Origin: a virus | Virus record (IMG/VR): IMGVR_UViG_3300049847_000494 | Coordinates: 62,001 to 126,000 of that record | Length of the DNA: 64,000 nt | Reading direction: 5' to 3' (one strand) | Position numbers and translations under genes: made by a program | The notes under the pieces: model-generated | Told to the model about the DNA's origin: nothing | Databases searched by the model: none | Seen by the model: the letters and a program-made list of their open reading frames with translations, nothing else | Part shown: one piece after another, positions 47,952 to 62,304 of the stretch | Numbering within the stretch: the first letter of the stretch is position 1 | Layout of the letters: each line of letters starts with the position of its first letter

Positions 47952-48743
47952 ATGAAGTTAGATAAATCTAAAATATCAGATCTTAAATATAAGCTAGATT
48001 CTAACTTGTATAAAGCTGACTTTATTAAGCATGCAAAAGAAAAAGACCCTATTAGTTTAGTTTATCCTTATACTAACAATTTAGATAAAGAAGTAGTTGC
48101 TTTTATTGTATCTACACTATCTTATGGTAGGCAAGAAATTTTTAGACCTGTATTACGTACTATCCTAAATAATATAGGAGATAAGCCAGCAAAATTTATT
48201 GCTAATGGTGATGAAGATGACTTTAAAAATGCTCTTGCCGATTTCACTCAGTATAGATTTAATACTAAAGATGATTTGGTATCGCTATTTAAAGCTTTAA
48301 AAACTGTATACAGTGTAGGCTCTACCTTAGAAGAAGTGTTCTTGCAAGGTTTTGATGGTAATGTGAAACCTGCACTTAGTCACTTAGTGGAAAAGTTACT
48401 AAATACCCAACCTAAAACGAAGGGTTTTAGTTACCTATTACCTTCTCCAGATGCAGGTAGTTGTTGCAAGAGACTTAACATGTTCCTACGGTGGATGGTT
48501 CGTATTGATCTAATCGATATTGGTTTATGGAGCTCAAATATACCAAGAGAATGTCTTATAGTACCTCTTGATATACATATAGCTAAAGTAAGCCGTGAGC
48601 TTGGTCTTACAACCAGGATTAGTAATACATGGAGCACAGCTGAAGATATCACAGAAAGCTTACGATGTTTGGATCCTAAAGATCCTATCAAGTACGATTT
48701 TGCTTTATGCACGTCAAGTATATTGAAAAACAAGTATGAATAA
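47952..48743 (+). CDS. TIGR02757/DUF2400 family protein
   Basis: Residues show the family pattern: VVAFIVSTLSYGRQEIF, later SCCKRLNMFLRWMVRIDLID, IGLWSSNIPRECLIVPLDIH, and DPKDPIKYDFALC near the C-terminus. The Lys-Arg-Leu-Asn-Met-Phe-Leu-Arg-Trp-Met-Val-Arg stretch and PLDxH element are characteristic. Members are usually bacterial, about 250-280 aa and thought to be HhH-GPD DNA-glycosylase relatives of unknown role. It overlaps the next gene by 8 bp. A DNA-repair or base-modification role is possible. Confidence 0.8.
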   Translation: MKLDKSKISDLKYKLDSNLYKADFIKHAKEKDPISLVYPYTNNLDKEVVAFIVSTLSYGRQEIFRPVLRTILNNIGDKPAKFIANGDEDDFKNALADFTQYRFNTKDDLVSLFKALKTVYSVGSTLEEVFLQGFDGNVKPALSHLVEKLLNTQPKTKGFSYLLPSPDAGSCCKRLNMFLRWMVRIDLIDIGLWSSNIPRECLIVPLDIHIAKVSRELGLTTRISNTWSTAEDITESLRCLDPKDPIKYDFALCTSSILKNKYE

Positions 48744-48960
48744 ATCTGAACAACTTATAAAGCAAGTACAAGACATAACCAAATTAGACAGAATAGATGT
48801 ATTACTGTTATTAGCTACTACAGTTTCTGACGGATTACTTAGTACACCTTCAAGTGTGCTTGAAGGTAAGTTCCGATTACAAACAAATAGACTCGTTTTT
48901 AGAAAGCTTCGGAGTGTTCTAAATACTCTGGAAAAGTTAAATTTCCTAAGGTTTGACTGA
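48736..48960 (+). CDS. Hypothetical protein, 74 aa
   Basis: This helical small protein (LIKQVQDITKLDRIDVLLLL) overlaps the TIGR02757 stop by 8 bp and is coupled to the next gene by a TGATG overlap. It may be a helix-turn-helix or partner protein. No named family. Confidence 0.5.
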   Translation: MNKSEQLIKQVQDITKLDRIDVLLLLATTVSDGLLSTPSSVLEGKFRLQTNRLVFRKLRSVLNTLEKLNFLRFD

Positions 48961-49421
48961 TGATAACACTAGAAAAACTGTTACTAACCGCTAAGAGCAG
49001 CCGAGTTACTAACAGTATGCCTTATACTGTTAGTAATCTGGTCAAGCGGTCAGGATCTGAAAATGAAGGGAGCTATACCTTATTTATAGCAAATATGGTT
49101 GGTGATGGAAGTCAACCTTCCTTATGTAGTATAAAATTTTTTGGATCTATCAGTGTACAAACTAAAGTAAAAGTAGATTGTAAATGTAATGATTTCAAGT
49201 ATAATTCAAAAGATAAACCTATATTAGAAGCTAAAGCTGAAGCTGCTCGGGTAGCTAAACCACTGGAATCAATAAGTAATACAGAAGATCCTTTACCTTT
49301 TATGTGTAAGCATTTAGCCGCATTAGCTAAATCATGTATAGATGCAGAGACTTTAAAACAAAAACAGGTTTCAGATAAAAAACCTGTAAATATAAGTAGT
49401 AAACTAAAGAACAAAAGGTAA
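48960..49421 (+). CDS. SWIM zinc-finger-like protein, 153 aa
   Basis: C74-x-C76 (VDCKCNDFKY) and C116-x-H118 (FMCKHLAAL) give the CxC...CxH order of SWIM zinc fingers. SWIM domains bind DNA or proteins in bacterial, plant and viral proteins; phages carry short SWIM proteins of unknown role. It overlaps the previous gene by one base. The C-terminus is Lys-rich and probably disordered. Confidence 0.6.
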   Translation: MITLEKLLLTAKSSRVTNSMPYTVSNLVKRSGSENEGSYTLFIANMVGDGSQPSLCSIKFFGSISVQTKVKVDCKCNDFKYNSKDKPILEAKAEAARVAKPLESISNTEDPLPFMCKHLAALAKSCIDAETLKQKQVSDKKPVNISSKLKNKR

Positions 49422-49426
49422 TTTAC

Positions 49427-50755
49427 TTGTCTTACTTTGATGAACTTGCAAAAGCTAATGCAGAAGAAACTCTTAAGCAAGAGGAGTTATTACCTCTCTT
49501 CTCAAGAGCTAATAAGAACTTAAAAGAATGTGTAAAAATTCTTGTTCAGGAAAACCAAGTAATCCAAAATAGAATCGTGAGTTTAGGTGCAGAAATAGCA
49601 TCTAATATTGATAGAAATAAAGCTATCTTTACGAGAAGTTTAAGATATGAGGAGGATAATCTAGTTGATATTATCCCTAACAAACTTGAACAGCAGCAAT
49701 ATATGCTATGTCAATGCCTGGATTTACAAAAAGCCATGGCTACTAATGACGTATCTAAACAGATCGAAATAATAGAAAATATACCTATTTCTAGGATGAT
49801 TTTCGAGGATGTTATCGTAACATGGCTCAATACAGTTAAAGAGTATACAAAACAAGTAGATTATAATGTTATGTCAGCCTCAAAAGATAACATAGATAAC
49901 TACTTGAAAAGTTCTTTAAAAGTACATAACTTAGAAAAATCATTAGGATTAAATCCTGTAACTAGTTACAGTACTATACGATTTGTTAATAGCCGTATGG
50001 AAGCTATAAGGTCTATATATAACAGGATAGCTAAAGCTTATGCTAGATCTGTGCTTAAAATGGCAAGAGGTCTTGCTGTATATCATGACTATGTGTTAGA
50101 TAGTTATCAAAACGGTAACTTTGGATTGATGAGAGCTATAAGCTCATATGACCATATAAGTAATGCACGCTTCCCTGGGTATGCAGCTTGGTGGATAAAG
50201 CAAAAAATGCTCTTTTGTATGAAGGAAGAAGCTAACGTAATAAAGATTTCAAGTAATACCTGGCAACATTATGCTAAACTTGAATCTTTCAGAAATAAAA
50301 TAGAAGGCAAAAAAGGATCTATAACAATAGAAGATATAGCTAAAGCAGCTAATTATACAGTAGAAAAAGCTGAAAGCATATATAATAGTATTAAAGCTAG
50401 TCAAGTCAAATCCTTAGAATACAATTTAAGCTCAGAAGGATTTAATTTACTTACGGTAGCTTCTGGCACAGATGATCCTGTCCTTGTAGAGGATGCTTCT
50501 ACAGCAGCAGAAGAGATATTAGCAATTGAAGAACAAACTACTCATGAAGAACAAGATAGTAAAAGAGTGGAAATTCTACTTAAAAATTTACCAAAAGACT
50601 TAAAAAAGATCGTTTGTCTTAAATTTGGTCTTTTGGATAAACTTTCTCAAGAAATCGACCCTGATAGGGTTGCTTTCGAAAGGATGAGACAACAAGTTGC
50701 TGCTCTAAGGGAGCGAGCAATTAATAACAAAGAAGGTGAAGCAGTACAAGCCTAA
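49427..50755 (+). CDS. Sigma-70-type RNA polymerase sigma factor
   Basis: This 442-aa protein has an unusually long N-terminus. Region 2 is clear: LDSYQNGNFGLMRAISSYDH, then RFPGYAAWWIKQKMLFCMKE (matches the ...GNLGLMRAVEKFD...KFSTYAxWWIRQAI... signature). A region 3-like element (GSITIEDIAKAANYTVEKAE) follows. Region 4 is only weakly visible (LPKDLKKIVCLKFGLL). Start is TTG at 49427 after AAGG. It should redirect host RNA polymerase to phage promoters. Weak region 4 suggests promoters lacking a -35 (inference). Confidence 0.85.
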   Translation: MSYFDELAKANAEETLKQEELLPLFSRANKNLKECVKILVQENQVIQNRIVSLGAEIASNIDRNKAIFTRSLRYEEDNLVDIIPNKLEQQQYMLCQCLDLQKAMATNDVSKQIEIIENIPISRMIFEDVIVTWLNTVKEYTKQVDYNVMSASKDNIDNYLKSSLKVHNLEKSLGLNPVTSYSTIRFVNSRMEAIRSIYNRIAKAYARSVLKMARGLAVYHDYVLDSYQNGNFGLMRAISSYDHISNARFPGYAAWWIKQKMLFCMKEEANVIKISSNTWQHYAKLESFRNKIEGKKGSITIEDIAKAANYTVEKAESIYNSIKASQVKSLEYNLSSEGFNLLTVASGTDDPVLVEDASTAAEEILAIEEQTTHEEQDSKRVEILLKNLPKDLKKIVCLKFGLLDKLSQEIDPDRVAFERMRQQVAALRERAINNKEGEAVQA

Positions 50756-50820
50756 AACATGTAAAACCAGCAAATCGGCATTTTGCCAAAGTAAGCTACA
50801 AACAATAAAGGAATATAAAA

Positions 50821-51756
50821 ATGAAAACATTAGATCAAATCAAACCAAAAAATAGTGATGTCAAGTGGCGCAATAATATCCTATCACCAGAAATGCCTAA
50901 GGATAACAGTTGGTACTCCTTCCGAGTAGTTGGTGGTGTATTATCTTATGCTCAGCACTGGGTAAAATCAATCAATCAAAAGACAGGTAAGGAAATTGTA
51001 TTTCCTGTAGATTGTCTTGCATGGGATGATGATAGTGAAGATATTAACCGATCCAAGATTGGTGATTGTCCTGGTTGTCAAACCGACATTAAGCCACGCG
51101 GCAAGTATCTATTCAATGTAATCGATCGTGGTGTACAGAAGACAGGTAGCTCTTCTTATATCAGAGCTTTCGATCTACCACCTACAGCAATGAACAAGAT
51201 TCTAGAGCTTAGCACTCTAAATATGGTTAATGGTCAACCAAAGAGTGTTGCTGATGTCCTTTATGGTTGTGACCTTTATATCCAATGGTCTACCAAAGAA
51301 GGTCGCACTGGCAAGGGTGATTGGGTCATCCAAAAGGGTGAACGTACACCACTTACTGACGAAGAGAAGCGTGCAGAGCTTTACGACTTTACAGAAATCT
51401 ATGTACCGGGTGATGCTACTAATGCACGACAAAGCTTAATACGAGCAGGTTACTTTAAGGAAGATACGGGCAGTGCACAGCAGAGGCAAGTCATGATGCC
51501 ACCCTCAGGTGCTCAGATGCCACCCACACATAATCCACCAGCAGTCATTAGTCAAACAAATGAAACTTATGTAAACCCTCCTGTAGAGGAGCAAACTATT
51601 TCAGTTATGCCTAAGTCATTAGGAAAGCCACCACAAAGCCTAGGTGTAGTGGAGAAACCTAGTTGTTTTGGTGCTTTCAAAGGTGACCTAGATTGTCCTA
51701 AGTGCCCACACCGACCAGCTTGTTTAGTCCTTACACAGGAACGACAAGACGGTTAA
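50821..51756 (+). CDS. Candidate single-stranded DNA-binding protein, 311 aa
   Basis: The core (WYSFRVVGGVLSYAQHWVKS, VDCLAWDDDSEDINRSKIGD, then CPGCQTDIKPRGKYLFNVID) resembles OB-fold phage ssDNA-binding proteins with a zinc subsite (CPGC). Codons look less AT-biased, suggesting high expression (impression only). The C-terminal half has a Pro/Gln-rich linker and a last CPKCPHRPACL zinc motif. The genes around it (sigma, topoisomerase-like, recA) support a replication role. Without an acidic tail this is a tentative call. Confidence 0.5.
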   Translation: MKTLDQIKPKNSDVKWRNNILSPEMPKDNSWYSFRVVGGVLSYAQHWVKSINQKTGKEIVFPVDCLAWDDDSEDINRSKIGDCPGCQTDIKPRGKYLFNVIDRGVQKTGSSSYIRAFDLPPTAMNKILELSTLNMVNGQPKSVADVLYGCDLYIQWSTKEGRTGKGDWVIQKGERTPLTDEEKRAELYDFTEIYVPGDATNARQSLIRAGYFKEDTGSAQQRQVMMPPSGAQMPPTHNPPAVISQTNETYVNPPVEEQTISVMPKSLGKPPQSLGVVEKPSCFGAFKGDLDCPKCPHRPACLVLTQERQDG

Positions 51757-51769
51757 AAGGAAATAATAG

Positions 51770-52120
51770 ATGTTAAAATCTACCTGTCAGCAAGCTTTAG
51801 ATATAATAGCTGACACTGATAAGGTCATGATTTTAATAGAACAATATGGTGACCCTCTTAGTAAGAGGGCTCGCCATGTTTTGCATTCTAATAAAATTAG
51901 ATTTGAAAAACTAGGTTATAAATTACTTACAGTAGCTTTTGAAGCTGAATTAGCGAAACACGAAGAGTTATCTTGCGTTCGTTTACCACAAATAAGAATA
52001 TTCCGCAAGCATAAACTATACTCCAAGTATGTTGGTGTACCTTCGGATATCGACATAAATAATATATTTAAAGAGGCTATGTGTTACACAGCACAAGTAC
52101 CAAAAAAAGAAAAAACTTAG
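51770..52120 (+). CDS. Hypothetical protein, 116 aa
   Basis: The protein has KVMILIEQYGDPLSKRARHV and a cluster of basic residues (IRIFRKHKLYSKYVG). Its end overlaps the topoisomerase-like start by 40 bp. A thioredoxin-like fold is possible (LLTVAFEAELAKHEELSCVR) but not supported by an active site. Function unknown. Confidence 0.5.
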   Translation: MLKSTCQQALDIIADTDKVMILIEQYGDPLSKRARHVLHSNKIRFEKLGYKLLTVAFEAELAKHEELSCVRLPQIRIFRKHKLYSKYVGVPSDIDINNIFKEAMCYTAQVPKKEKT

Positions 52121-53922
52121 TAGTTGTAGAATCTACAGTCAAAGCAGAAACACTAAAAAGTGTACTAAGTACAGATTCGAAAATAGACTGGCGTTTTTAC
52201 GTATTTGAAGATGAATTAACTATTGGAAAGAAACTAGTAGAAGGGTCCTATGTTGTAACATCAACAATGGACGATACTAGCTATAATTTTAAAATAGAAA
52301 TTAGTGGTGTAGAAAATATATGGATAGCTACAAATCCAGATGCAGAGGGTGAAGCTATTGCTTCGATTATAAACAAAAAAGCATTACGATATTCTGAAGC
52401 TCGTGTAAGAAGAGTTCAACTTAAAGAACTAACTGAAGAACATATAAGATTAGCCTTTACCACAGCTGAGCTCGTAGATGCTAATTTGGCGGATAGTTGG
52501 TGGACACGTAATCATATCTATCAATGGCAAGCTACTAAATTAGCTATGGGTATAGGTAATATATTAGCTTGTTCTAAAGTACAAAGGGATCATTTATATA
52601 CAAACCCTGTGGGATTATTACTACTCTCTCTTATAGAGAAAAAAGAGAAAGAGATCCAAAATTTTACAGTAAATACAACTTATAAAGTCGTATTACCTAT
52701 ATGTAAAAATACAGCTTTAGCATGTTCTTTAGGGTTTACATTACAAGAAGATGCACAAAAGCATCTAGAGAAATTACGTGATGCTATCGATGAAAAAAAG
52801 ATTGAAGCTAATTATAGTGAAGAAAAGTATCCGTTCAAAATACCTGCACCTTATACAACCCATACAGCATTAAATAATTTATGTAAAGAATATAAGTTAA
52901 CACCTAATAAGATCTTAAAGTACATGAAAGATCTTTACGAATTAGGCTATATAACATTCTATAAGACAAACCGAAAATCTCTAAATCGTAAATTTGCAGA
53001 ATACTTATGGAAAAATGCCAGAGCGCAAGGTTTACTTGTATTAGATAAACCAAAAAACTATTCTGAGTATAATAAAAATGGAGAGTTCATTAGACCTACT
53101 TCCTATTCAGAAGATCTGCCCATAACACTAAAAACACAAGCTATATACAGTAATATATTCAGTAGGGTAAAAAATACACAGCTAAAACCAGCAAGTTTAA
53201 TAAAGCAAAAAGTTGTCTATACCTTGGATAATGGTCAAGAAATTTTAGCAGAAGCTTTTGGTATAGCTTTAGAGAAAGCTGGAGTACACGACTTAGCAGA
53301 GACTCAACAACAGATCAATGAAGGTTTTATCAAAAGATTTGGTGAACCTTATATCACAAATGAAAATACAATACCACCACAAAGGTGGAATAAAGCTACA
53401 CTTTATAGCTGGATGACCACATATAATATAACCCATATCAATCTATATGAAAATATACTAAATAATATTATTGATAATAACTACGTTAGTTTAGATGAAG
53501 ATAGTAATTTCCATCTAACAGAAAAAGGCGATATTATCATTACAACTCTTCGAGATTTAGGTACAGAGGTTGAAGATTATTTATTCTTTAGCCAATTAGA
53601 AGAAGACCTACAAGATTTAGCTGAAGGTAATAAAACTGTAATAGATATAGAAAACGATTATGGTGAAACTGGTTATGAGGTATTGCGTAATATAGGATCA
53701 GAAGCTAGTAATTTAAGATTTATACCTAAAACTTGTTTAAAATGCAAAAAAGTAAAATGTACTACACAAGTACTTACTCAAAGTATTGGTAAATATTGTA
53801 TGAAATGTCATACACATTATAAACTTGTAATGGATCCAACAGGTGAAATTATACTCGTAGAAATGTCCCTAGATCCTAAGGATCTTGAGAACCTAAACCA
53901 AGAAGATGAAGACGAACCTTAA
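52081..53922 (+). CDS. Degenerate type IA topoisomerase-like protein
   Basis: The TOPRIM start LVVVESTVKAETLKSVL (Glu17) and IATNPDAEGEAIA align with TopA (LVIVESPxKAKTIxxxL; TDLDREGEAIA). The first Asp of the DxDxEG metal triad is Asn85 and the Arg is Ala88. In TopA GYITYMRTDS the Tyr attacks DNA; here GYITFYKTNR has Phe293, with Tyr294 one place later, and Lys295 and Asn297 in place of Arg and Asp. SAGRVQS reads ACSKVQR. A C-terminal CLKC...CMKC zinc pair remains. Start is GTG at 52081. The fold is probably kept but classic chemistry is doubtful. Confidence 0.8.
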   Translation: MLHSTSTKKRKNLVVVESTVKAETLKSVLSTDSKIDWRFYVFEDELTIGKKLVEGSYVVTSTMDDTSYNFKIEISGVENIWIATNPDAEGEAIASIINKKALRYSEARVRRVQLKELTEEHIRLAFTTAELVDANLADSWWTRNHIYQWQATKLAMGIGNILACSKVQRDHLYTNPVGLLLLSLIEKKEKEIQNFTVNTTYKVVLPICKNTALACSLGFTLQEDAQKHLEKLRDAIDEKKIEANYSEEKYPFKIPAPYTTHTALNNLCKEYKLTPNKILKYMKDLYELGYITFYKTNRKSLNRKFAEYLWKNARAQGLLVLDKPKNYSEYNKNGEFIRPTSYSEDLPITLKTQAIYSNIFSRVKNTQLKPASLIKQKVVYTLDNGQEILAEAFGIALEKAGVHDLAETQQQINEGFIKRFGEPYITNENTIPPQRWNKATLYSWMTTYNITHINLYENILNNIIDNNYVSLDEDSNFHLTEKGDIIITTLRDLGTEVEDYLFFSQLEEDLQDLAEGNKTVIDIENDYGETGYEVLRNIGSEASNLRFIPKTCLKCKKVKCTTQVLTQSIGKYCMKCHTHYKLVMDPTGEIILVEMSLDPKDLENLNQEDEDEP

Positions 53923-53928
53923 TATCCT

Positions 53929-53964
53929 CCCCGCCCTACAGCTACACTGAAAGGACGGGGTTTT
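53929..53964 (+). terminator. Terminator-like hairpin between the topoisomerase-like gene and recA
   Basis: CCCCG (53929-53933) pairs with CGGGG (53956-53960), with CCT (53935-53937) against AGG and an inner CAG/CTG stem, then TTTT. It is a good rho-independent shape. It also resembles IS605/TnpB element ends (CCTCCCCGCCCT), so the terminator may derive from a mobile-element end. Confidence 0.7.
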
Positions 53965-53980
53965 ACGCTAAAGAAGATAA
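53953..53980. repeat. Intergenic repeat E1, upstream of recA
   Basis: Core GGACGGGG followed by TTTTACGCTAAAGAAGATAA. It is repeated exactly at 62249-62276 (E3) and nearly at 55259-55284 (E2, two bases shorter). Each copy ends just before a gene start: recA (53993), the HAD-like gene (55291) and the helicase (62305). Confidence 0.9.
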
Positions 53981-53992
53981 AAGGAAGAATCC

Positions 53993-55231
53993 ATGGCTAA
54001 AAAAGAAAAAGAAAAAACCAGTAACTTTATTGCAATCAATCCAGTTGAGCTAGCTGCTGCTGCTGCAGAAATAGGCAAAAGTCTAGACAATCCACCAGTT
54101 AACTTAGATAGAGGTAAGTACGTAACAGGAACTATTAGCTTTGGCTCCTTGTGCTTAGATTTACTTACAGGCGGCGGTGTACCTCCAGGTAAAATAGTAG
54201 ATATGTTTGGTCCTGAAGGTGCAGGTAAGAGCACCTTTTCTTACCATTGTATTGGTAATGCTATGAGGGAAAGTTACCCAGGTGCGGGTGATGCTATACC
54301 TACCTTTGTGTTTGACCATGAAGCTGGTGCTGATGGTAAGTACTTAGGTGCTGTAGGTGTTAAAATTAGGTTAGCTAATGGAGATAAGAATCCTCTATTT
54401 AACTATCATCAACCTACTACAGGTGAATCTACTTACAGGTTTTTAAATAGATTATTGGATAAGCTACCTGATTATGTTGCTATGGATGAAGGACGACCAA
54501 GAGCTACTGTATTATTCGTTATAGACTCATTAGCAGCCATGTTACCAGAAGATATCCATGCAGCAGACGACAAGAACCCTATGGGTGTTAGTGCAAAGCT
54601 ACATGGTGAGGGTATGCAAATGATCAAAGCTAAGCTTGGGCGGAAGAACTGTACTCTTATTTGTACTAATCAAATTAGAGAAAAACCAAATTCAATGTAC
54701 GGTAACCCAGAATATGAACCTGGCGGGCAGGCTGTTAAGTTTTATCCTGACCTAAAAATTAGGATTCAAGGCGTAGGTAAACCATGGACCGAACGTAATC
54801 GTCAAATGCGCTATATCAGCGTAAGGACGATTAAAAATAAGCAGTTTGTGCCCTTTTTAGAGTTAAAAGAAACGATTGCTATTGCCCATGGTCATGGCGT
54901 CGAACGTGGTTATGATAGTTTAGGGTTTCTAACCATGACAAATCAGGTTACTGTTGCTCATGGTGGTAACTATAGGCTAAAGTTGCCAGGTACACCTTGG
55001 CATGAACAAAACTTCAAAAAAGAAGGTTTGATGGAGTTAGGGCATAAAAATGTATTTAGATCTTATTTAAGGTCTCAAATTGATTCCGGTGAAGCCTTTG
55101 ACCTTTATTTTGCTTCCCAAAACTGGGAGACTATGTACAAGGCTGATGAAGAAGACGCTGGAACGGGTTATGCCAACAAAGATCTAGATATCCCAGAAGA
55201 TATAAATGAAACTACTGCCACCTTAGATTAA
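53993..55231 (+). CDS. recA: RecA/UvsX-like recombinase
   Basis: Walker A GPEGAGKST (residues 73-81), Walker B VLFVIDSLAAM, and loop-2 region TNQIREKPNSMYGNPEYEPG followed by GQAVKFYPDLKIRI define a RecA-fold recombinase. N-terminal residues 1-40 are Lys-rich. The C-terminus (ENTLPGTPWH-type region and an acidic tail) differs from bacterial RecA, suggesting a phage lineage. It catalyses strand exchange for recombination-dependent replication with SbcCD, SSB-like and RuvC-like proteins in this window. Preceded by a terminator-like hairpin and AAGGAAG. Confidence 0.85.
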   Translation: MAKKEKEKTSNFIAINPVELAAAAAEIGKSLDNPPVNLDRGKYVTGTISFGSLCLDLLTGGGVPPGKIVDMFGPEGAGKSTFSYHCIGNAMRESYPGAGDAIPTFVFDHEAGADGKYLGAVGVKIRLANGDKNPLFNYHQPTTGESTYRFLNRLLDKLPDYVAMDEGRPRATVLFVIDSLAAMLPEDIHAADDKNPMGVSAKLHGEGMQMIKAKLGRKNCTLICTNQIREKPNSMYGNPEYEPGGQAVKFYPDLKIRIQGVGKPWTERNRQMRYISVRTIKNKQFVPFLELKETIAIAHGHGVERGYDSLGFLTMTNQVTVAHGGNYRLKLPGTPWHEQNFKKEGLMELGHKNVFRSYLRSQIDSGEAFDLYFASQNWETMYKADEEDAGTGYANKDLDIPEDINETTATLD

Positions 55232-55258
55232 TGTTGACCATCATTAAGCGTAGCTGTA

Positions 55259-55284
55259 GGACGGTTTTAAGCTAAAGAGGATAA
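55259..55284. repeat. Intergenic repeat E2, upstream of the HAD-like gene
   Basis: GGACGG plus TTTTAAGCTAAAGAGGATAA matches E1 and E3 with one two-base deletion and two substitutions. Upstream, TAGCTGTA resembles the TAGCTGCAGG-like part of the other copies (as the inverse of the stem). It lies just before the ATG at 55291. Confidence 0.85.
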
Positions 55285-55290
55285 TTAGTC

Positions 55291-55806
55291 ATGTCTCTTA
55301 TTATTGTAGATTTTGAAGGAACTATATCAGATGATAGGGAGCGATTACATTATCTACAAGTTGACATGACTAAATACTACAATAATATATTATATGACCC
55401 TATAAATACTGTTTGTAAAGAATTATTGTTAGATATAACAGAGTTAGAGAAAGAAAACGATCCGCTATTCGTGTATGTAACCACATATCCGAGATATTAT
55501 CAAGTTGATGATAAAAGACAAATAGATATCGGTATTAAAATACGAAACTGGTTAGATAAGAACAAACTTACTATTACAAATATAGTAGCTAAACCACGGA
55601 AAGTCGATCATTCTAACTATGTTGAAGACAAACTAAGGAGAATTTCTAAAATAGTAATGGAACATATTGAAGAAAGACAAATCTACTATTTAGAAAATGA
55701 CTTGAATGTAGCTATTAGAGCTAAAGCTAAGTTCCCTACGGCACATATTTATCACGTAGATTATGATGATTTTAATTTACTTAAAATTGATAATATAAAG
55801 AAATAA
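55291..55806 (+). CDS. HAD-like phosphatase candidate, 171 aa
   Basis: Motif I IIVDFEGTISDDRERL (Asp7, with the second acidic position Glu9 instead of Asp), motif II YVTTYPR, and motif IV-like YYLENDLNVAIRAKAKFP fit HAD-family enzymes acting on phosphates (including 5'/3' polynucleotide phosphatase domains). The substitution D-to-E at the general acid might lower activity. It lies downstream of recA with the E2 repeat before it. Substrate unknown. Confidence 0.55.
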   Translation: MSLIIVDFEGTISDDRERLHYLQVDMTKYYNNILYDPINTVCKELLLDITELEKENDPLFVYVTTYPRYYQVDDKRQIDIGIKIRNWLDKNKLTITNIVAKPRKVDHSNYVEDKLRRISKIVMEHIEERQIYYLENDLNVAIRAKAKFPTAHIYHVDYDDFNLLKIDNIKK

Positions 55807-55811
55807 CTATT

Positions 55812-56357
55812 ATGACAAAAACAAGTCAAATACTGGATATGTCAGGCAAGCCTATCAAATATGGCAATTACGATCCTAATATAATTAGTGTGGATGATAG
55901 CCCTAAGTTTGAAATGCGCCAACCTTCTGATTACCCAGAAGTACCAAATGAAGTTAAAAAATCAGAAATACAATATATACTACCTATGGCTAACTTTATA
56001 GCTCAATCATTAGGTATTAGTATAATTGAAGAAAAATCTTATGAAAAAGTATTAGAGCAGCTTAAACAAAGAAGCTTGTTTGTAATTATGAATTTAGCAG
56101 GTGTTAAAATAAACCAAGGTGTAGCTGAATGGTTTGGTTTAATACTGATGTGTAAGAAACATGCTGTGACTATGGTTAAGTTTAAACTACAATTAAGTAC
56201 AGGTAAAATAGGCATATCTCAATGCCGTATATGGCAAACAGCACTTCAAAAATACATAATACTTGGTGATAGTACAGGCAAAAAACTATTAAATAGAGAA
56301 GAAACAGCAAGTCAGATCCTCAATTATTTGAAAATTGAGGGTATTTGTAATGTGTAA
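55812..56357 (+). CDS. Hypothetical protein, 181 aa
   Basis: The N-terminus is polar and disordered; the middle contains ILPMANFIAQSLGISIIEEK and VAEWFGLILMCKKHAVTMVK, mostly helical. A fold resembling small DNA-binding or dimerisation proteins is possible but there is no clear motif. It precedes SbcD by 14 bp, so it is likely co-transcribed with it. Confidence 0.5.
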   Translation: MTKTSQILDMSGKPIKYGNYDPNIISVDDSPKFEMRQPSDYPEVPNEVKKSEIQYILPMANFIAQSLGISIIEEKSYEKVLEQLKQRSLFVIMNLAGVKINQGVAEWFGLILMCKKHAVTMVKFKLQLSTGKIGISQCRIWQTALQKYIILGDSTGKKLLNREETASQILNYLKIEGICNV

Positions 56358-56371
56358 AAAGAAAGCAAAAA

Positions 56372-57412
56372 ATGCGCTTTGTTCATAGTAGTGATTGGCA
56401 CATTGGATCAAGTAAGTTTTTACCAGACTACTTAGATCGACAAAGTAAAGTTATAGATGCTATCTTTACAAAAGCTAAAGATCTAGGTATTAATACAGTA
56501 TGTATTGCTGGTGATGTGTTTGAAACTGAAAACCCGTTACCAGAAGAGCGTGATTTAATACAGAAAAAAATCGTTGCTTATGACCAAGCAGGATTTAATA
56601 TACTGGTTATACCAGGTAACCATGATATGTCCAACATGTCAGGTTACACTGCAATACACTATTTAGCTTTATTACATACTCAAGACAAATTTATCAATTC
56701 TACAGTAACTGAAAAAACATGTTATCGGCTTATTGATGATACTGTATTTATATTATTATGCCATACACCAAGGCAATTTAAACGTGATATAATTAATGCA
56801 GTAAATGAATTACGTGAAGCTTCTATTAAAGTATCCTATAAAAACATTGTCATTATAGCACATGAAACTATTAAAGGTTCTATTAGTGATACTAACTGGC
56901 GCATGAAGTCAGGGGCAGAAGTCCCTACATTAGATTATGGCGAAGTACTGGATGATGTACCCGTAACCTACTGTGCTTTAGGTGACTTACATATTAAGCA
57001 GCAAGTAGCACCTAAAACTTTCTACTGTGGTGCACCACTACAAATAAAGTTCGGCGATCAACACCCAAAAGGTATCCTTATAGTTGATACAGATGATCCC
57101 AATAACCCTGTATTTGAACCTATTGAATCTACTGCTCTTGTTCGTGTAACAAGTCTGGAAGATATACCTGAAAACTGTCATGTTAAACTTGTAACGGATA
57201 AAATCAATTCATTAGGTTTAGATCTACCAGATAACGTAATGAAGTTAGAGTACAGGAAAAATGAAAAAGATGACAGCATTTTAGATATAAACCAAGATCT
57301 AAATATCATTTTATTAGAGGAAGTAACTAAAAAGTTTGAGGGTGAAGATCTGTCTATTGCTAAAAGAGAAATTGACGAATTACTTAGTCTACTACCACAA
57401 GCTGAAATATGA
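56372..57412 (+). CDS. sbcD: SbcD/Mre11-type nuclease subunit
   Basis: The phosphoesterase motifs are intact: SDWHIGSS (motif I), AGDVFETEN (II), IPGNHDMSN (III), IIAHETIKG (IV) and ALGDLHIKQ (V). It corresponds to SbcD or T4 gp47, a dsDNA end-processing nuclease that pairs with SbcC. It is 346 aa with a C-terminal partner-binding part. The last 4 bp overlap SbcC (ATGA), so stoichiometric expression is expected. It degrades or resects DNA ends for recombination. Confidence 0.9.
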   Translation: MRFVHSSDWHIGSSKFLPDYLDRQSKVIDAIFTKAKDLGINTVCIAGDVFETENPLPEERDLIQKKIVAYDQAGFNILVIPGNHDMSNMSGYTAIHYLALLHTQDKFINSTVTEKTCYRLIDDTVFILLCHTPRQFKRDIINAVNELREASIKVSYKNIVIIAHETIKGSISDTNWRMKSGAEVPTLDYGEVLDDVPVTYCALGDLHIKQQVAPKTFYCGAPLQIKFGDQHPKGILIVDTDDPNNPVFEPIESTALVRVTSLEDIPENCHVKLVTDKINSLGLDLPDNVMKLEYRKNEKDDSILDINQDLNIILLEEVTKKFEGEDLSIAKREIDELLSLLPQAEI

Positions 57413-59712
57413 GCAAGATAATCTATAAAAATTTCTCAGTACTAAATGGTGGCTGTATAAGCCAAGCTACGATGCCGTTAGAAAACCAAGGTTTAGTACT
57501 TATACAGGGCGTCAATAAGGACGAAGGAGGGTCTAATGGCTCAGGTAAAAGCACCTTATTTGACCTATTAGCTAATACGTGTACAGGTAGAACAGGTAAG
57601 ATGTCAGGTAGTAAATACCTAAAAAAGAACGATCTACTGAATATAAAAAACCCTAAGAACTTCCATACACAGCTGGTTTTTCAAAAAGGTAGTTCAGAAT
57701 ACATCATAAATAATTACCGTGCTCATGATGAGCATAAGACAGGTATTGAGATAATAGTAGATGGTATAGATGAAACACCTACTATTGGTATCGATAAAGT
57801 ACAAGCTAAAGTAAGTACAATATTAGGATTAACACCTGATGAGTTTTACGGTCAAATATACTTAAGCCAGCAATATACCCATGCCTTAGTACATGGTACA
57901 CCAAGTGAAAAGAGCAAGTACCTCTCATTATATTTTGGTCTGGATTCAATCAACTTACTAACTACTTTGACAAAGAAAAGAGTTGAAAGTATAGTAATAC
58001 CAAATGAACGAGAACTTATTGACTTAAAGGATAGCGTACAACAACAGCTAGATTCTATTAGTGATGAAGCTTCAATGCTGTCAAAGCTACAAATAATAGA
58101 TAAAGACCGAAAAGAATCTCAAGCACGGGTACTTGAACTACGGTTCATTATTGAAAACCAAAATAAAGCTAAAATAGTAGAGGAACAAAGTAAAGAGTGG
58201 GAAAGCAAGTTAGCTAAAATGAACCTGACTTTTACTGTCCCAGAGCTGAAAAAGCAGGAAGCTATTGTAGCAGGAATAGTAGAAATATACACAACTGACC
58301 TACGTCGGATGATAGAACTTGAAAAAGTTGAGCTTGAATTAAGTAACTTAGGTGTAGCTGCAGATACCTCTTATCAAGAGGTACGTAAGGAAATTGAAAT
58401 ACAAGAAGCCGCTATACAAGCTAAAAGTGAAGAGCTTGTTAAACTAGAAAGAAGAAAAGTCCTTGAAAATGAATTCAACAGTTTACCTAAGTCTGATAAA
58501 GACTGGAAGACATTAAGTTTAGAGTTAAGTCAAAAAGAAAAAGAAATTAAAGTTTACCAAAAAAATTTAAATACGCTAAAAGTAGAAATAGACAAGCTTT
58601 CCTTTAAAGGCAAGGAATGCCCTACGTGCCTACGACCTATCGCTGAAGAGGAACATCAAAACCTACTTAGTAGTAGGGAACATAAGCATACAAACTTACA
58701 ACCGATAGTAGATGAATTACTAAAGGATATTGAAGATGTAAAGCTTCTAACTAATGCCAAAGAAAAGCAGCTTTTAATTGAAGCCGATTTAACTGATTTA
58801 CCAGAAGGCGATCCGAACAGGACTAAATTAGAAATACAATCTACAAAAACCACTAAGCAAAAGCTACAGCTTCTAGCTGATAGCCTCGTGAGAAGTTCCA
58901 GTTTACAAGATAGAGCCTTGCGTTTAAGGCAAGAAGATGCTAACTTAGGTAAAACACAGGAAGAGCTAAGAGATAGCCTGAATAACCTGAATAATAAACT
59001 TACTGTTATAAAAACAGCTAAGGAGTGGTTACTAAGTAATGGTCAGGTAAAGTTTGATATGGTAGCTTTGGGGTTAGCAACCGAGGAGATACAGCTTAGA
59101 GAAGAGCAACTATCAAACTTAATCGAGGAAAGTTTAAGATTAAATAAGTCTCTTACAATAAGAAATCAGTTAAACAAGCAACTTGCTGATGTTAACGCTA
59201 TTCTTTCTAGAAATAGCATTGAGAAGAATAGAAAGCGAATATTGGAGGTTATCAATGTAACCGTAGCTGATATCAGGAAACAAAAGTTAAAACAAGCAAC
59301 TGAAGCTCTATCATCAATATTACCATATTATATCAAACAGTTGTTCCCTCAAGGGGATGTTCGTGTTTCTACACCTGATAATGGATCAGATTTTGATCTA
59401 TTTTTAGATAAAGGCAATCAACAGATTTCCTTATATGCAGCCAGTGGTGGTCAGGCGAAGCGCGTAGTATTAGCTATATTCTTTGCTTTCTCTCAGATAG
59501 GATCTAAAGGTAGTAATATACTTTTAGGTGATGAGATATTCAAGGATTTAGACCCACGAGGGAGAGAAGCTACTTATGATATAATAAGGGACCTTAAAAT
59601 CCCTAGTATATTCATAACCTCTCATGATAATGATTTAGATCAAAAGAACAGATACGATCAGGTATGGCGTGTAGTAATGGAAAACGATACTTCTGTTCTT
59701 GAAATAGATTAG
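57409..59712 (+). CDS. sbcC: SbcC/Rad50-type ATPase subunit
   Basis: Walker A SNGSGKST lies at residues 42-49. Two long coiled coils flank a zinc hook CPTC at 404-407. The ABC signature ASGGQAKR includes Ser679, and the Walker B region is ILLGDEIFKDLD followed by SHDNDLD. This is the standard Rad50/SbcC/T4 gp46 order. It is 767 aa, short because of compact coiled coils. It hydrolyses ATP to open and regulate the SbcD nuclease on DNA ends. Start ATG overlaps SbcD. Confidence 0.9.
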   Translation: MSKIIYKNFSVLNGGCISQATMPLENQGLVLIQGVNKDEGGSNGSGKSTLFDLLANTCTGRTGKMSGSKYLKKNDLLNIKNPKNFHTQLVFQKGSSEYIINNYRAHDEHKTGIEIIVDGIDETPTIGIDKVQAKVSTILGLTPDEFYGQIYLSQQYTHALVHGTPSEKSKYLSLYFGLDSINLLTTLTKKRVESIVIPNERELIDLKDSVQQQLDSISDEASMLSKLQIIDKDRKESQARVLELRFIIENQNKAKIVEEQSKEWESKLAKMNLTFTVPELKKQEAIVAGIVEIYTTDLRRMIELEKVELELSNLGVAADTSYQEVRKEIEIQEAAIQAKSEELVKLERRKVLENEFNSLPKSDKDWKTLSLELSQKEKEIKVYQKNLNTLKVEIDKLSFKGKECPTCLRPIAEEEHQNLLSSREHKHTNLQPIVDELLKDIEDVKLLTNAKEKQLLIEADLTDLPEGDPNRTKLEIQSTKTTKQKLQLLADSLVRSSSLQDRALRLRQEDANLGKTQEELRDSLNNLNNKLTVIKTAKEWLLSNGQVKFDMVALGLATEEIQLREEQLSNLIEESLRLNKSLTIRNQLNKQLADVNAILSRNSIEKNRKRILEVINVTVADIRKQKLKQATEALSSILPYYIKQLFPQGDVRVSTPDNGSDFDLFLDKGNQQISLYAASGGQAKRVVLAIFFAFSQIGSKGSNILLGDEIFKDLDPRGREATYDIIRDLKIPSIFITSHDNDLDQKNRYDQVWRVVMENDTSVLEID

Positions 59713-59739
59713 GTTAACCAACAAATAAGAAAGTAGTTT

Positions 59740-60585
59740 ATGTCGAAACTAATAGGATTAGCCTTTACTTCTCCTGGAGTAGCCTTTATAGCTATAGACA
59801 GGTCAAAATATAAGGTTTACTACCATGAACAATCAAATCTAACTGATTTTAGGCTCTTTCTAGATAAGAAAGATAATAGAGAACCTGTAGTTTTTCTAAA
59901 TAATGTGAGAGACCTAATTGAATTAGAGAAAATAGCAGATAATAGTGTTAAAAACTATGTCCTATTTGAGGATCCTAAAGTTTTATCTAATATAGAAGGT
60001 GCTATTTTACCTGATTTTAAGCAAGACGTTGTTTTAGATTGGGTCAAAATACAAATTACTCAAGATGACTTCAATAAATTATTAGAAGATAGCGTGTATA
60101 ATAATAGCTTTAATGTTACAGATAAAGCTATTATATCAAGTAACTTGAATACTTCACCGATTACCTTTTTAGAGCTTGTACAAGCTGTAAAAGGCTTCTA
60201 TATTGAACAAAACAAAGATAGCACAGATTTCATAAATCTTGCTTGCAAGTACGTTACAAAACTGATAAGTAAGAAATCATGGGTTTCCTTAGCAAGGAAA
60301 CCCGCTTTAGCCGCAGGTATTCCTATAAAGGCTATAGCGGAGATAGAAAAAAGTATTGAAACAAGTAAGTTAGCGGATGAGATTTGGCGTGCTTTTTATG
60401 AGTATAGTATTACAGGTACACTTATAAAAGATTTAGTCAAAAAATATGTAGTTACAGAAGATGATATACATTTCATAATAACTGCGTTACAAGCGGAACC
60501 TAGCGGAAACTTAGAATTTACAGCAACCCCAGGTTCTTCAAAAAGAAAAAAGACAAAAGCCAGTATAAAACAGGAGAAAACATGA
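59740..60585 (+). CDS. Hypothetical protein, 281 aa
   Basis: This all-soluble protein has an N-terminal alpha/beta half (LIGLAFTSPGVAFIAIDRSK, VKNYVLFEDPKV) and a helical C-terminal half with a basic end (KRKKTKASIKQ). It may be replication-associated by position (after SbcC). Its end overlaps the next gene by 4 bp. Confidence 0.5.
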   Translation: MSKLIGLAFTSPGVAFIAIDRSKYKVYYHEQSNLTDFRLFLDKKDNREPVVFLNNVRDLIELEKIADNSVKNYVLFEDPKVLSNIEGAILPDFKQDVVLDWVKIQITQDDFNKLLEDSVYNNSFNVTDKAIISSNLNTSPITFLELVQAVKGFYIEQNKDSTDFINLACKYVTKLISKKSWVSLARKPALAAGIPIKAIAEIEKSIETSKLADEIWRAFYEYSITGTLIKDLVKKYVVTEDDIHFIITALQAEPSGNLEFTATPGSSKRKKTKASIKQEKT

Positions 60586-60785
60586 GTAGTTGTTGTAGAG
60601 GTAAAGATGTAGACCCTAACATAGCTTTTTTTGATGCTATTGACAAAGCAACATACGCTATAAATAACAGGTCTGCCTTAGCATTTGTAGAAGACGTTAC
60701 AAGTAATGTAAGATGGAATAAACTATCAAATCTAATGAAAGCACTCAAAAATATCGAGCTACTTACAGAGAAAGAATTTAATTGA
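60582..60785 (+). CDS. Hypothetical protein, 67 aa
   Basis: It begins MSSCCRGKDVDPNIAFFDAI and is helical afterwards. The first residues carry a double Cys. It overlaps its upstream neighbour (ATGA) and the KH gene follows within two bases. Unknown function. Confidence 0.45.
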   Translation: MSSCCRGKDVDPNIAFFDAIDKATYAINNRSALAFVEDVTSNVRWNKLSNLMKALKNIELLTEKEFN

Positions 60786-60786
60786 A

Positions 60787-61101
60787 ATGCAGAATAACTT
60801 TATTGAAGCTACTCAAAACAAGACACCTGAATATCTAAAGTTTAGAAAAGAACTTTTTGAAACAACCATCTTAGATATGGTTGAACATATTTGTGAAGAG
60901 CTAATTAATCATGATAAGTTGGTAGTAGCATATAACGTAGATGATAAAAAAGCTTCAATCACGATAAAAGTCCCTAAGAAAAACATACGCGATATAGTAG
61001 GAAAAAGAAGCGAAACACTTATAGCTATTAAAAAATTAGCTTTCAGTGTAGCTAACAAGCACGATTTTTATCTCACTATCCGACTAGAAGAACTTTGTTG
61101 A
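60787..61101 (+). CDS. KH-domain RNA-binding-like protein, 104 aa
   Basis: Residues 56-104 (ASITIKVPKKNIRDIVGKRS, then ETLIAIKKLAFSVANKHDF) match a type II KH fold. The GxxG loop reads GKRS at 72-75, with the last Gly as Ser, so RNA binding may be altered. KhpA-like KH proteins are small bacterial RNA-binding regulators; the helical N-terminal half (1-45) is extra. Its TGA stop is directly followed by the TnpB element. Similar KH proteins in phages are rare in my recollection. Confidence 0.55.
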   Translation: MQNNFIEATQNKTPEYLKFRKELFETTILDMVEHICEELINHDKLVVAYNVDDKKASITIKVPKKNIRDIVGKRSETLIAIKKLAFSVANKHDFYLTIRLEELC

Positions 61102-61240
61102 CATCCTCCCCGTCCTTTAGGGTGGGGATTCCTAGATCACTTTAGATCTAGCGTTTGATGCCCCAAACGGAGAATGTTTATTGCAGCATTAGTATCCCGA
61201 TCATGGTGCCGGTTACAAATACTACAAACCCACTCTCTTA
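61098..61240 (-). ncRNA. Candidate omega/reRNA scaffold at the 3' end of tnpB
   Basis: In IS605-type elements the guide RNA overlaps the 3' end of tnpB and extends through the right end. Here the minus strand from inside tnpB down to 61102 contains the C-rich hairpin and an AGATC-GATCT stem near 61130-61150. The guide would read flanking phage sequence beyond 61100. Boundaries are estimated from family knowledge only. Confidence 0.35.
61102..61134. repeat. Right-end palindrome of the TnpB element
   Basis: Plus CCCCGTCC and GGGTGGGG pair with two G-U pairs over the TTTA loop, flanked by CATCCT and ATTCC. This is a typical IS605/IS1341-type right end. The adjacent TTGAC (61098-61102) fits a known class of target motif at that end. 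On the tnpB-sense strand it forms the last hairpin of a possible guide RNA. Confidence 0.75.
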
Positions 61241-62171
61241 TCCCCAAACCTTCTAGCCCTCTCGGACCACCTATTGTTAAACAATAGGAACAGGTTTGAG
61301 TTGTGAGGTGTTCACTTACCTCTTTATAAGTTCCTGAATGCCTAATGGCTTTATATTTCAAGAACGTCTTAATCATACCCCAGCCCGAATCATTAACAGA
61401 CTTAGCCATCTTAGTTTTAATTAGCTTCTTACTACTTACATCACCTACAAATATATCTCGGTAGTTTTTAGTTATTTCAGTAGTAAGCTTATGACAAGCA
61501 TCTAACCTGGAGTTCCTGATTTTAGCATGGATAGCTTTAACAGCTTTCCTCTTTTTATCTTTTTGAGCAAGAGCTAGTTTTCTTTGATGTTTTTGATAGA
61601 ATTTTCCGTTATTATACTTTTTACCCTGGGATGTTGTAGCTAATGTCTTTAAACCTAAATCAATACCTACACTGGTACCTTCAGGAGCGGGTTTTAGAGG
61701 GTCTACCTCACATACAAAGTTAACATACCACCTACCTCTTGCATCTCTACCAAAAGATCCAGTTTTAATTTTACCTGGTAACTTCCGGCTATTCCAGTAC
61801 TTAATTGTTTTACCACAATACTTTAAGGTAGCATCACTTATTACCTTAATAGCTGCACCTTTAAATGGTAACCAAGGTAAAGACTTTTTACCACGGTATC
61901 TTAGCTTAATCTTCTTAGCTTTGTTTCTTTTGTTAGCATAGTCTTCACAAACAGCTTGTATTGAGGTAGAAGCTATTTTAAGCTCTTTAGAAGTACCTGC
62001 TGTAAGATTATTTAAGTCGAAGCCAGATAACCATTTACCATCTCTTTTAATAGCATTAAAAGCAGTATTATTACAATAGTTCCATACATAATTAACAGCA
62101 CCTGAAGCTTGTTCTAACCAAGCCACACCTGACGAATCCTTAATCCGATAATGAAAAGTTTGTAGTATCAT
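61137..62171 (-). CDS. tnpB: TnpB RNA-guided nuclease-like protein, RuvC-II variant
   Basis: This 344-aa protein shows the TnpB order: N-terminal region with VNYVWNYCNNTAF, RuvC-I SVGIDLGLKTLAT (Asp171), RuvC-II region DIFVGDVSSKKL, zinc finger CSYC...CSIC (C294, C297, C316, C319), and RuvC-III HHDRDTNAAINIL (324-333). The usual RuvC-II Glu (in IVIEDLN-type motifs) is Gly243 here, followed by Asp244; a possible substitute is Glu284 or Glu287 (KEVSEH). TnpB lineages with VGDVSS-like motifs and relocated acidic residues exist in my recollection. It would cut DNA next to a target motif and help element retention. Confidence 0.85.
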   Translation of the reverse strand: MILQTFHYRIKDSSGVAWLEQASGAVNYVWNYCNNTAFNAIKRDGKWLSGFDLNNLTAGTSKELKIASTSIQAVCEDYANKRNKAKKIKLRYRGKKSLPWLPFKGAAIKVISDATLKYCGKTIKYWNSRKLPGKIKTGSFGRDARGRWYVNFVCEVDPLKPAPEGTSVGIDLGLKTLATTSQGKKYNNGKFYQKHQRKLALAQKDKKRKAVKAIHAKIRNSRLDACHKLTTEITKNYRDIFVGDVSSKKLIKTKMAKSVNDSGWGMIKTFLKYKAIRHSGTYKEVSEHLTTQTCSYCLTIGGPRGLEGLGIREWVCSICNRHHDRDTNAAINILRLGHQTLDLK

Positions 62172-62248
62172 GTTAAACCTAATTTACAAGAAAAGATGTA
62201 AAATGAAGAAAGAAAAGCTTGCATCCACGCCCTGCAGCTACGCTGGAA

Positions 62249-62276
62249 GGACGGGGTTTTACGCTAAAGAAGATAA
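62249..62276. repeat. Intergenic repeat E3, upstream of the helicase and at the TnpB left end
   Basis: Identical over 28 bp to E1 (GGACGGGG then TTTTACGCTAAAGAAGATAA). The preceding stem GCAGC-TAC-GCTGG also resembles the E1 stem. It belongs either to the TnpB left end or to a phage leader family. Confidence 0.9.
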
Positions 62277-62304
62277 ATGAGTAGCTAAAGAAAGGTCAGG
62301 TTGC

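Follow-up and report, generated by a model that had tools for sequence, protein, structure and literature searches.

Probable non-catalytic topoisomerase I relatives beside the recombination genes of large, uncultured phages

Type IA topoisomerases, whose active site has been described as strictly conserved, are found throughout cellular life. Gly194, Arg195, Gln197, Arg168, Asp172, Arg321, and Arg507 (positions of E. coli TopA) are named as strictly conserved in type IA enzymes, and functions have been described for Glu9, the acidic triad, and His365 (PMC7587558). Laboratory mutants exist at two of the catalytic positions: D111N in the covalent complex of E. coli TopA (PDB 3px7) and Y851F in T. 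maritima reverse gyrase (PDB 7fsf). Large phages also carry type IA enzymes, such as the TopA of Microcystis phage MaAM05 and the topoisomerase III-like proteins of Dolichospermum phage Dfl-JY45 and Yersinia phage GN1. One part of a jumbo phage survey describes a two-subunit phage topoisomerase related to topoisomerase IV and a topoisomerase I of the tyrosine-recombinase type (PMC7824862). In the open-access full-text literature that we searched, we found no description of a natural type IA pseudo-topoisomerase in phages, nor of a natural viral family that has the type IA fold without its chemistry.

The window analysed here is a 64,000-nucleotide stretch (positions 62,001 to 126,000) of the IMG/VR virus record IMGVR_UViG_3300049847_000494. 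This record, of 132,976 bases, comes from an uncultured phage and may be a fragment. The window contains an intact TopA-like ORF of 613 aa on the plus strand (52081..53922), with a GTG start and a 40-nt overlap with the upstream gene. The ORF matched the Topoisom_bac profile PF01131 over residues 176 to 520 (110 bits, E=1.9e-31, cut-off 35.1) and the Toprim profile PF01751 over residues 13 to 116 (27.3 bits, cut-off 23.1), and phmmer aligned the protein with E. coli TopA at E=3.8e-15. Against the TopA equivalog model TIGR01051 it scored 91.6 bits, far below the curated cut-off of 456.4. An AlphaFold2 model of moderate confidence (pLDDT 75.5, pTM 0.67) had TopA structures as its best PDB matches, with a target-normalised TM-score of 0.76 and a Foldseek probability of 1.00 for 3px7. 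Residues 295 to 299 of the model have a pLDDT below 50. This loop is unreliable, and therefore the side-chain geometry at residues 293 and 294 is not readable from the model. Sequence and predicted fold both place the window protein among the type IA topoisomerases; the profiles, phmmer, and the AlphaFold2/Foldseek match to TopA bear out what a sequence-only reading of the gene had claimed.

In its sequence, the protein is a type IA core (Toprim and Topoisom_bac domains) followed by one C-terminal zinc-ribbon-like segment, in which C552/C555 and C573/C576 form a CxxC...CxxC pattern (53734..53808, plus strand). It resembles bacterial TopA (E. coli, PDB 1mw8/3px7; TIGR01051) in predicted fold, domain order, and C-terminal CxxC pairs. 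However, its C-terminal region, with a single Cys-pair segment, is much shorter than that of bacterial TopA, and nine of 13 reference catalytic and strand-binding residues are changed, the nucleophile included. The positions of D111N and Y851F are both naturally changed in the window protein; unlike it, each of those mutants carries a single engineered change in an otherwise intact enzyme.

The 13 reference positions are catalytic in type IA enzymes or strictly conserved among them, as described in PMC7587558. We assigned them by phmmer pairwise alignment and by MAFFT L-INS-i alignment with E. coli TopA and the relatives described below, and the two methods agreed. In the L-INS-i alignment, Glu17 corresponds to Glu9 of E. 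coli TopA, Asn85 to Asp111, Asp87 to Asp113, Ala88 to Arg114, Glu89 to Glu115, Phe293 to Tyr319, Tyr294 to Met320, and Lys295 to Arg321. Glu17 (52129..52131, plus strand, as are all residues given here) is present in all seven members of the family. The Toprim motif, DxDRE in ordinary TopA, reads Asn85-Pro-Asp87-Ala88-Glu89 (52333..52347). The acidic triad together with the Toprim Glu is therefore incomplete, with Asn85 as the first Asp and Glu17, Asp87, and Glu89 present; Lys21 is also retained. Residues 173 to 179, YTNPVGL (52597..52617), replace SAGRVQS, so that the G-strand contacts Gly194, Arg195, and Gln197 are lost (to Asn, Pro, and Gly). The tyrosine of the GYITY motif is absent, and Phe293 (TTC), Tyr294, and Lys295 stand at positions 319, 320, and 321 (52957..52965). 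Gly334 occupies the His365 position (53080..53082), a histidine that is lost in all seven members. The changed sites also include Arg321 to Lys, Arg507 to Asn, and Asp172 to Tyr. The codons of Asn85, Phe293, and Tyr294 are AAT, TTC, and TAT; Phe293 is one base off a Tyr codon and Asn85 one base off an Asp codon. Nowhere else in the window protein did the alignments reveal a normal Tyr motif or DxDxE. All residue calls made from the sequence alone (Phe293, Asn85, Ala88, and the altered SAGRVQS, with Glu17, Asp87, and Glu89 kept) were correct in both alignments, and the altered equivalents of His365, Arg507, Asp172, and Arg321 extend that list.

The TopA-like gene lies in a cassette on the plus strand. 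The cassette starts with a DUF2400 protein (47952-48743, 234 bits), with similar ORFs in the same place in two relatives (L002 and L003). A sigma-70 region 2-like protein (49427..50755), an SSB-like protein (50821..51756, phrog_15004), and a small protein with weak thioredoxin-like similarity (51770..52120) follow. The last of these is directly upstream of the TopA-like gene, and a similar-sized gene is found there in the relatives that we read. RecA (53993..55231) is directly downstream, likewise in the relatives, and 56372..59712 holds genes for gp47-like and gp46-like recombination nucleases, whose names come from resemblance in sequence and from synteny. The conserved order is sigma-like, SSB-like, thioredoxin-like, TopA-like, RecA, and gp47/46. 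We found neither a type IIA nor a second type IA topoisomerase in the 132,976 bases of the record, possibly a fragment. The terminase and RecA of this phage have only distant similarity to those of isolated phages. Elsewhere in the window, on the minus strand, are an intein-interrupted ribonucleotide reductase large subunit (12497-16426, PF02867), with an HNH endonuclease domain in the intein and a TSCPD-like domain at the C terminus, and a 344-aa protein of the TnpB/OrfB_IS605 type (61137-62171, PF07282 and PF01385). Rfam gave no match at the gathering threshold in 48000-63000, the region around the TnpB gene.

A direct search of viral contigs with the window TopA-like protein found no relative. 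Relatives were reached by anchoring on alignments of RecA, the sigma-like protein, and the SSB-like protein in IMG/VR. The sigma-like and SSB-like anchors returned an identical set of eight contigs with the cassette, and the RecA anchor recovered six of the eight; a RecA-alignment search of genome contigs yielded no relative. Among isolated phages there was no clear family member, and the matches were low-identity TopA and topoisomerase III. The carriers are a group of large, uncultured phages. Six of the eight contigs (L002, L012, L003, L004, L015, and L044) have a TopA-like gene in the same slot. The seven TopA-like proteins are monophyletic (100/99) relative to E. coli TopA, phage MaAM05 TopA, and the phage topoisomerase III-like proteins, and they split into clade A (window, L002, and L012) and clade B (L015, L044, L003, and L004). 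The C-terminal cysteine pairs are also found in L002 and L012 and are not intact in clade B. In L015, L044, and L004, the zinc-ribbon-like segment can still be aligned and the cysteine pairs are gone. PHROG 13226, an unnamed group of related proteins of unknown function, was matched by six of the seven members (best E=1.1e-45; window E=4.9e-25). The MaAM05, Dfl-JY45, and GN1 enzymes are likewise type IA proteins of large phages; however, they stand elsewhere in the tree, keep 12 to 13 of the 13 reference sites, and have no annotated RecA beside the topoisomerase in the stretches that we read.

The other two contigs, L042 (164 kb) and L016 (388 kb), lack a TopA-like gene over the whole record. 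Their slot (8614-8964 in L042, 4650-4970 in L016) holds homologous proteins of about 110 aa that are 35% identical. This small protein was sought in the seven records with a TopA-like gene and was not found there. It has weak DUF3467 similarity, below the cut-off, and we rejected it as a topoisomerase remnant (hhalign probability, 0.5%). L042 and L016 are not sisters in the RecA phylogeny, and the swap may have occurred more than once. However, RecA conflicts with other cassette genes, so the argument from its tree is weak. We also rejected an odd history of the window TopA-like gene alone: of the 10 cassette genes comparable among the window, L002, and L012, nine pair L002 with L012, and RecA is the sole exception. 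RecA of the window is 75% identical to that of L002 (6001-7266), and the L002 and L012 proteins are 68% identical to each other. Because the RecA pairing contradicts the nine other genes, it suggests recombination at RecA.

Loss of active-site residues extends across the family. E. coli TopA and MaAM05 TopA keep all 13 reference sites and the two phage topoisomerase III-like proteins keep 12, whereas the family members keep 7 (L012 and L015), 6 (L002, L003, and L044), 4 (window), or 2 (L004). Gly194, Gln197, Arg321, His365, and Arg507 are kept in none of the seven members, and ordinary phage topoisomerases IA keep all five. Because these losses occur in every member, they most simply predate the family. 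The Tyr319 position is Phe in the window protein and Asn in L004, and the other five members keep Tyr. The nucleophile motif reads ITFYKTNR in the window protein, ITYYKTNR in L012, and ITYFKTNR in L002. The Asp111 position is Asn in the window protein, Leu in L003, and Tyr in L004; Asp113 is Ser in L015, L044, and L004; and Glu115 is Leu in L004. Arg321 is replaced by Lys throughout clade A and by Tyr in L003 and L015. The L004 protein, which keeps neither Tyr319 nor Arg168 nor Arg321 and no residue of the acidic triad, is still an intact ORF of 570 aa. Of the unusual FY and NPDAEG patterns seen from the sequence, then, FY and Asn85 belong to the window protein only, Ala88 is clade-wide (L002 and L012), and the loss of SAGRVQS is family-wide.

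It had been proposed that Tyr294, directly after Phe293, substitutes as the nucleophile, in which case the window protein would be active with a shifted active site. The Tyr-Tyr of L012 would be a plausible intermediate, and Glu17, Lys21, Asp87, Glu89, and Lys295 are still in place. However, in the nearest relatives the normal Tyr is followed by Tyr (L012) or by Phe (L002). The aromatic residue at +1 is therefore a feature of the clade, independent of nucleophile loss. The +2 spacing of Lys295 from residue 293 is unchanged, and nine of the 13 reference sites are lost. Adjacent side chains on an extended strand point in opposite directions, which also counts against a takeover. Judged from these alignments, Tyr294 is probably not a relocated nucleophile, and we regard an active enzyme of this kind as very unlikely; the simplest history would be a single base change, TAC to TTC, that removed the ordinary Tyr. 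Each of the two unusual codons is one base from the usual one in a single uncultured metagenome contig, and Phe293, Asn85, or both might be an artefact of sequencing, assembly, or strain variation in a protein otherwise like L012. This would demand two independent errors in one active site in addition to Asp172 to Tyr, while the remaining losses are common to the relatives and the Tyr was lost independently in L004; we consider such an artefact highly improbable. Other substitutions recall enzymes that cannot let go. When an aromatic residue replaces Arg321 of E. coli TopA, or Asn replaces Asp111, the enzyme fails to rejoin the DNA and is held in the covalent complex (PMC7587558); our family has Tyr at the Arg321 position in L003 and L015 and Asn at Asp111 in the window protein. 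The members with Tyr319 could then be one-way enzymes, which make one cut in single-stranded DNA and remain bound to it covalently, and the window protein and L004 would be purely structural derivatives that had lost even the cutting. Those that combine Tyr319 with Tyr in place of Arg321 would mark DNA ends for the phage or break host DNA. However, the G-strand grip and His365 are lost, which makes cutting itself doubtful, and the window protein and L004 have no nucleophile, so that self-trapping is not a family-wide function. The chance that it explains the family is very small.

A slow decay of a topoisomerase I that is no longer needed, toward loss or replacement, has more in its favor. The TopA-like gene evolves fast: it is 31% identical between the window and L002, compared with 48 to 75% for the larger neighbours (sigma-like 59, gp47 59, RecA 75), and two small cassette neighbours are as divergent. 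Different catalytic residues are lost in each lineage, and two of the nine cassettes have the 110-aa protein in place of the gene. All clade B-side records of 164 kb or more, L042 and L016 included, encode a type IIA topoisomerase, which could have made TopA redundant there. However, no stop or frameshift interrupts any of the seven ORFs, which are full length at 15 to 57% identity, and neutral drift would have broken them long before this. In a simple neutral-drift simulation, 5 to 10% second-position change put stops in nearly every run, and the second-position divergence observed between members is 27 to 60%; the simulation gives no date for the loss of the Tyr. Synonymous sites are saturated between members, and dN/dS is therefore not measurable. 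L004 is far beyond the catalytic state, yet its AlphaFold2 model has fair confidence (pLDDT 79.9, pTM 0.73) and matches TopA 1mw9 with a TM-score of 0.70 to the target. Finally, clade A has conserved the region surrounding the former nucleophile. Residues 285 to 327 (52933..53061, plus strand), which include KTNR..NR.FAE.LW..ARAQ, are the most conserved block there, with 24 of 43 residues invariant, compared with 138 of 613 overall; the best conserved 25-residue segment, around the former nucleophile, was reached in 2 of 2,000 permutations. Together, the intact ORFs set against neutral drift, the L004 fold, and the conserved block argue, short of proof, for a retained function without need for strand cleavage. 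Slow decay is thus an unlikely account, and the view that the window gene reflects retention rather than random decay gained ground from the intact ORFs of seven divergent members and the predicted TopA fold of L004.

We favor, with a probability of about 60%, a family of non-catalytic topoisomerase I pseudoenzymes that are structural subunits of the phage recombination and replication machinery. The window protein is probably kept for a non-enzymatic job beside the recombination genes. Homology, predicted fold, residue changes, synteny, intact ORFs, and monophyly are observed; from them we infer the lack of catalysis, the structural role, and the partners. Enzyme fold and loss of catalytic residues occur together in the window protein and L004, the only two members that are clearly without a nucleophile in their sequence; five others keep the Tyr, and this, together with Lys for Arg321 in clade A, is evidence against the pseudoenzyme reading. 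Chen and Wang reportedly found in 1998 that E. coli TopA is little affected by R321K. L002 and L012 could therefore still be active, as they keep the Tyr and the acidic triad and have Lys for Arg321. The fast evolution and the two relatives without the gene also count against a pseudoenzyme and fit slow decay.

Under the pseudoenzyme reading, a phage lineage would have taken up a TopA. Before the seven members split, the protein would have lost the residues at the Gly194, Gln197, Arg321, His365, and Arg507 positions, which grip the cleaved strand and assist in its cutting and rejoining. Selection would thereafter have preserved the fold and not the chemistry, and further catalytic losses would have followed independently in each lineage, in the window protein those of the nucleophile (Phe293 for Tyr) and of the first Asp in Toprim (now Asn85). 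The resulting pseudo-topoisomerase would serve as a structural subunit with the adjacent SSB, RecA, and gp46/47, and its old strand channel may hold a partner protein or, with less certainty, single-stranded DNA. DNA binding in this channel by the window protein is possible. It is weakened by the loss of the residues equivalent to Arg195 and Arg507 and by the net acidic character of the protein (net charge -10; -15 in L004). The earlier option of a DNA-binding relative fares poorly for the same reason, with the phosphate-contacting residues mostly gone. A partner role with RecA, SSB, or the thioredoxin-like neighbour is at least as likely as DNA binding. If the exchange in the slot of L042 and L016 is functional, it would favor a role that a 110-aa protein can fill.

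Profile searches would label all seven members "DNA topoisomerase." If the 110-aa protein is a functional replacement, the job of this slot cannot be topoisomerase chemistry. At one syntenic place, the seven members grade from a nearly complete set of Tyr and DxDxE residues to none, and they amount to a natural mutant series. Such a series would make it possible to separate the roles of TopA that depend on its fold from those that depend on its chemistry.
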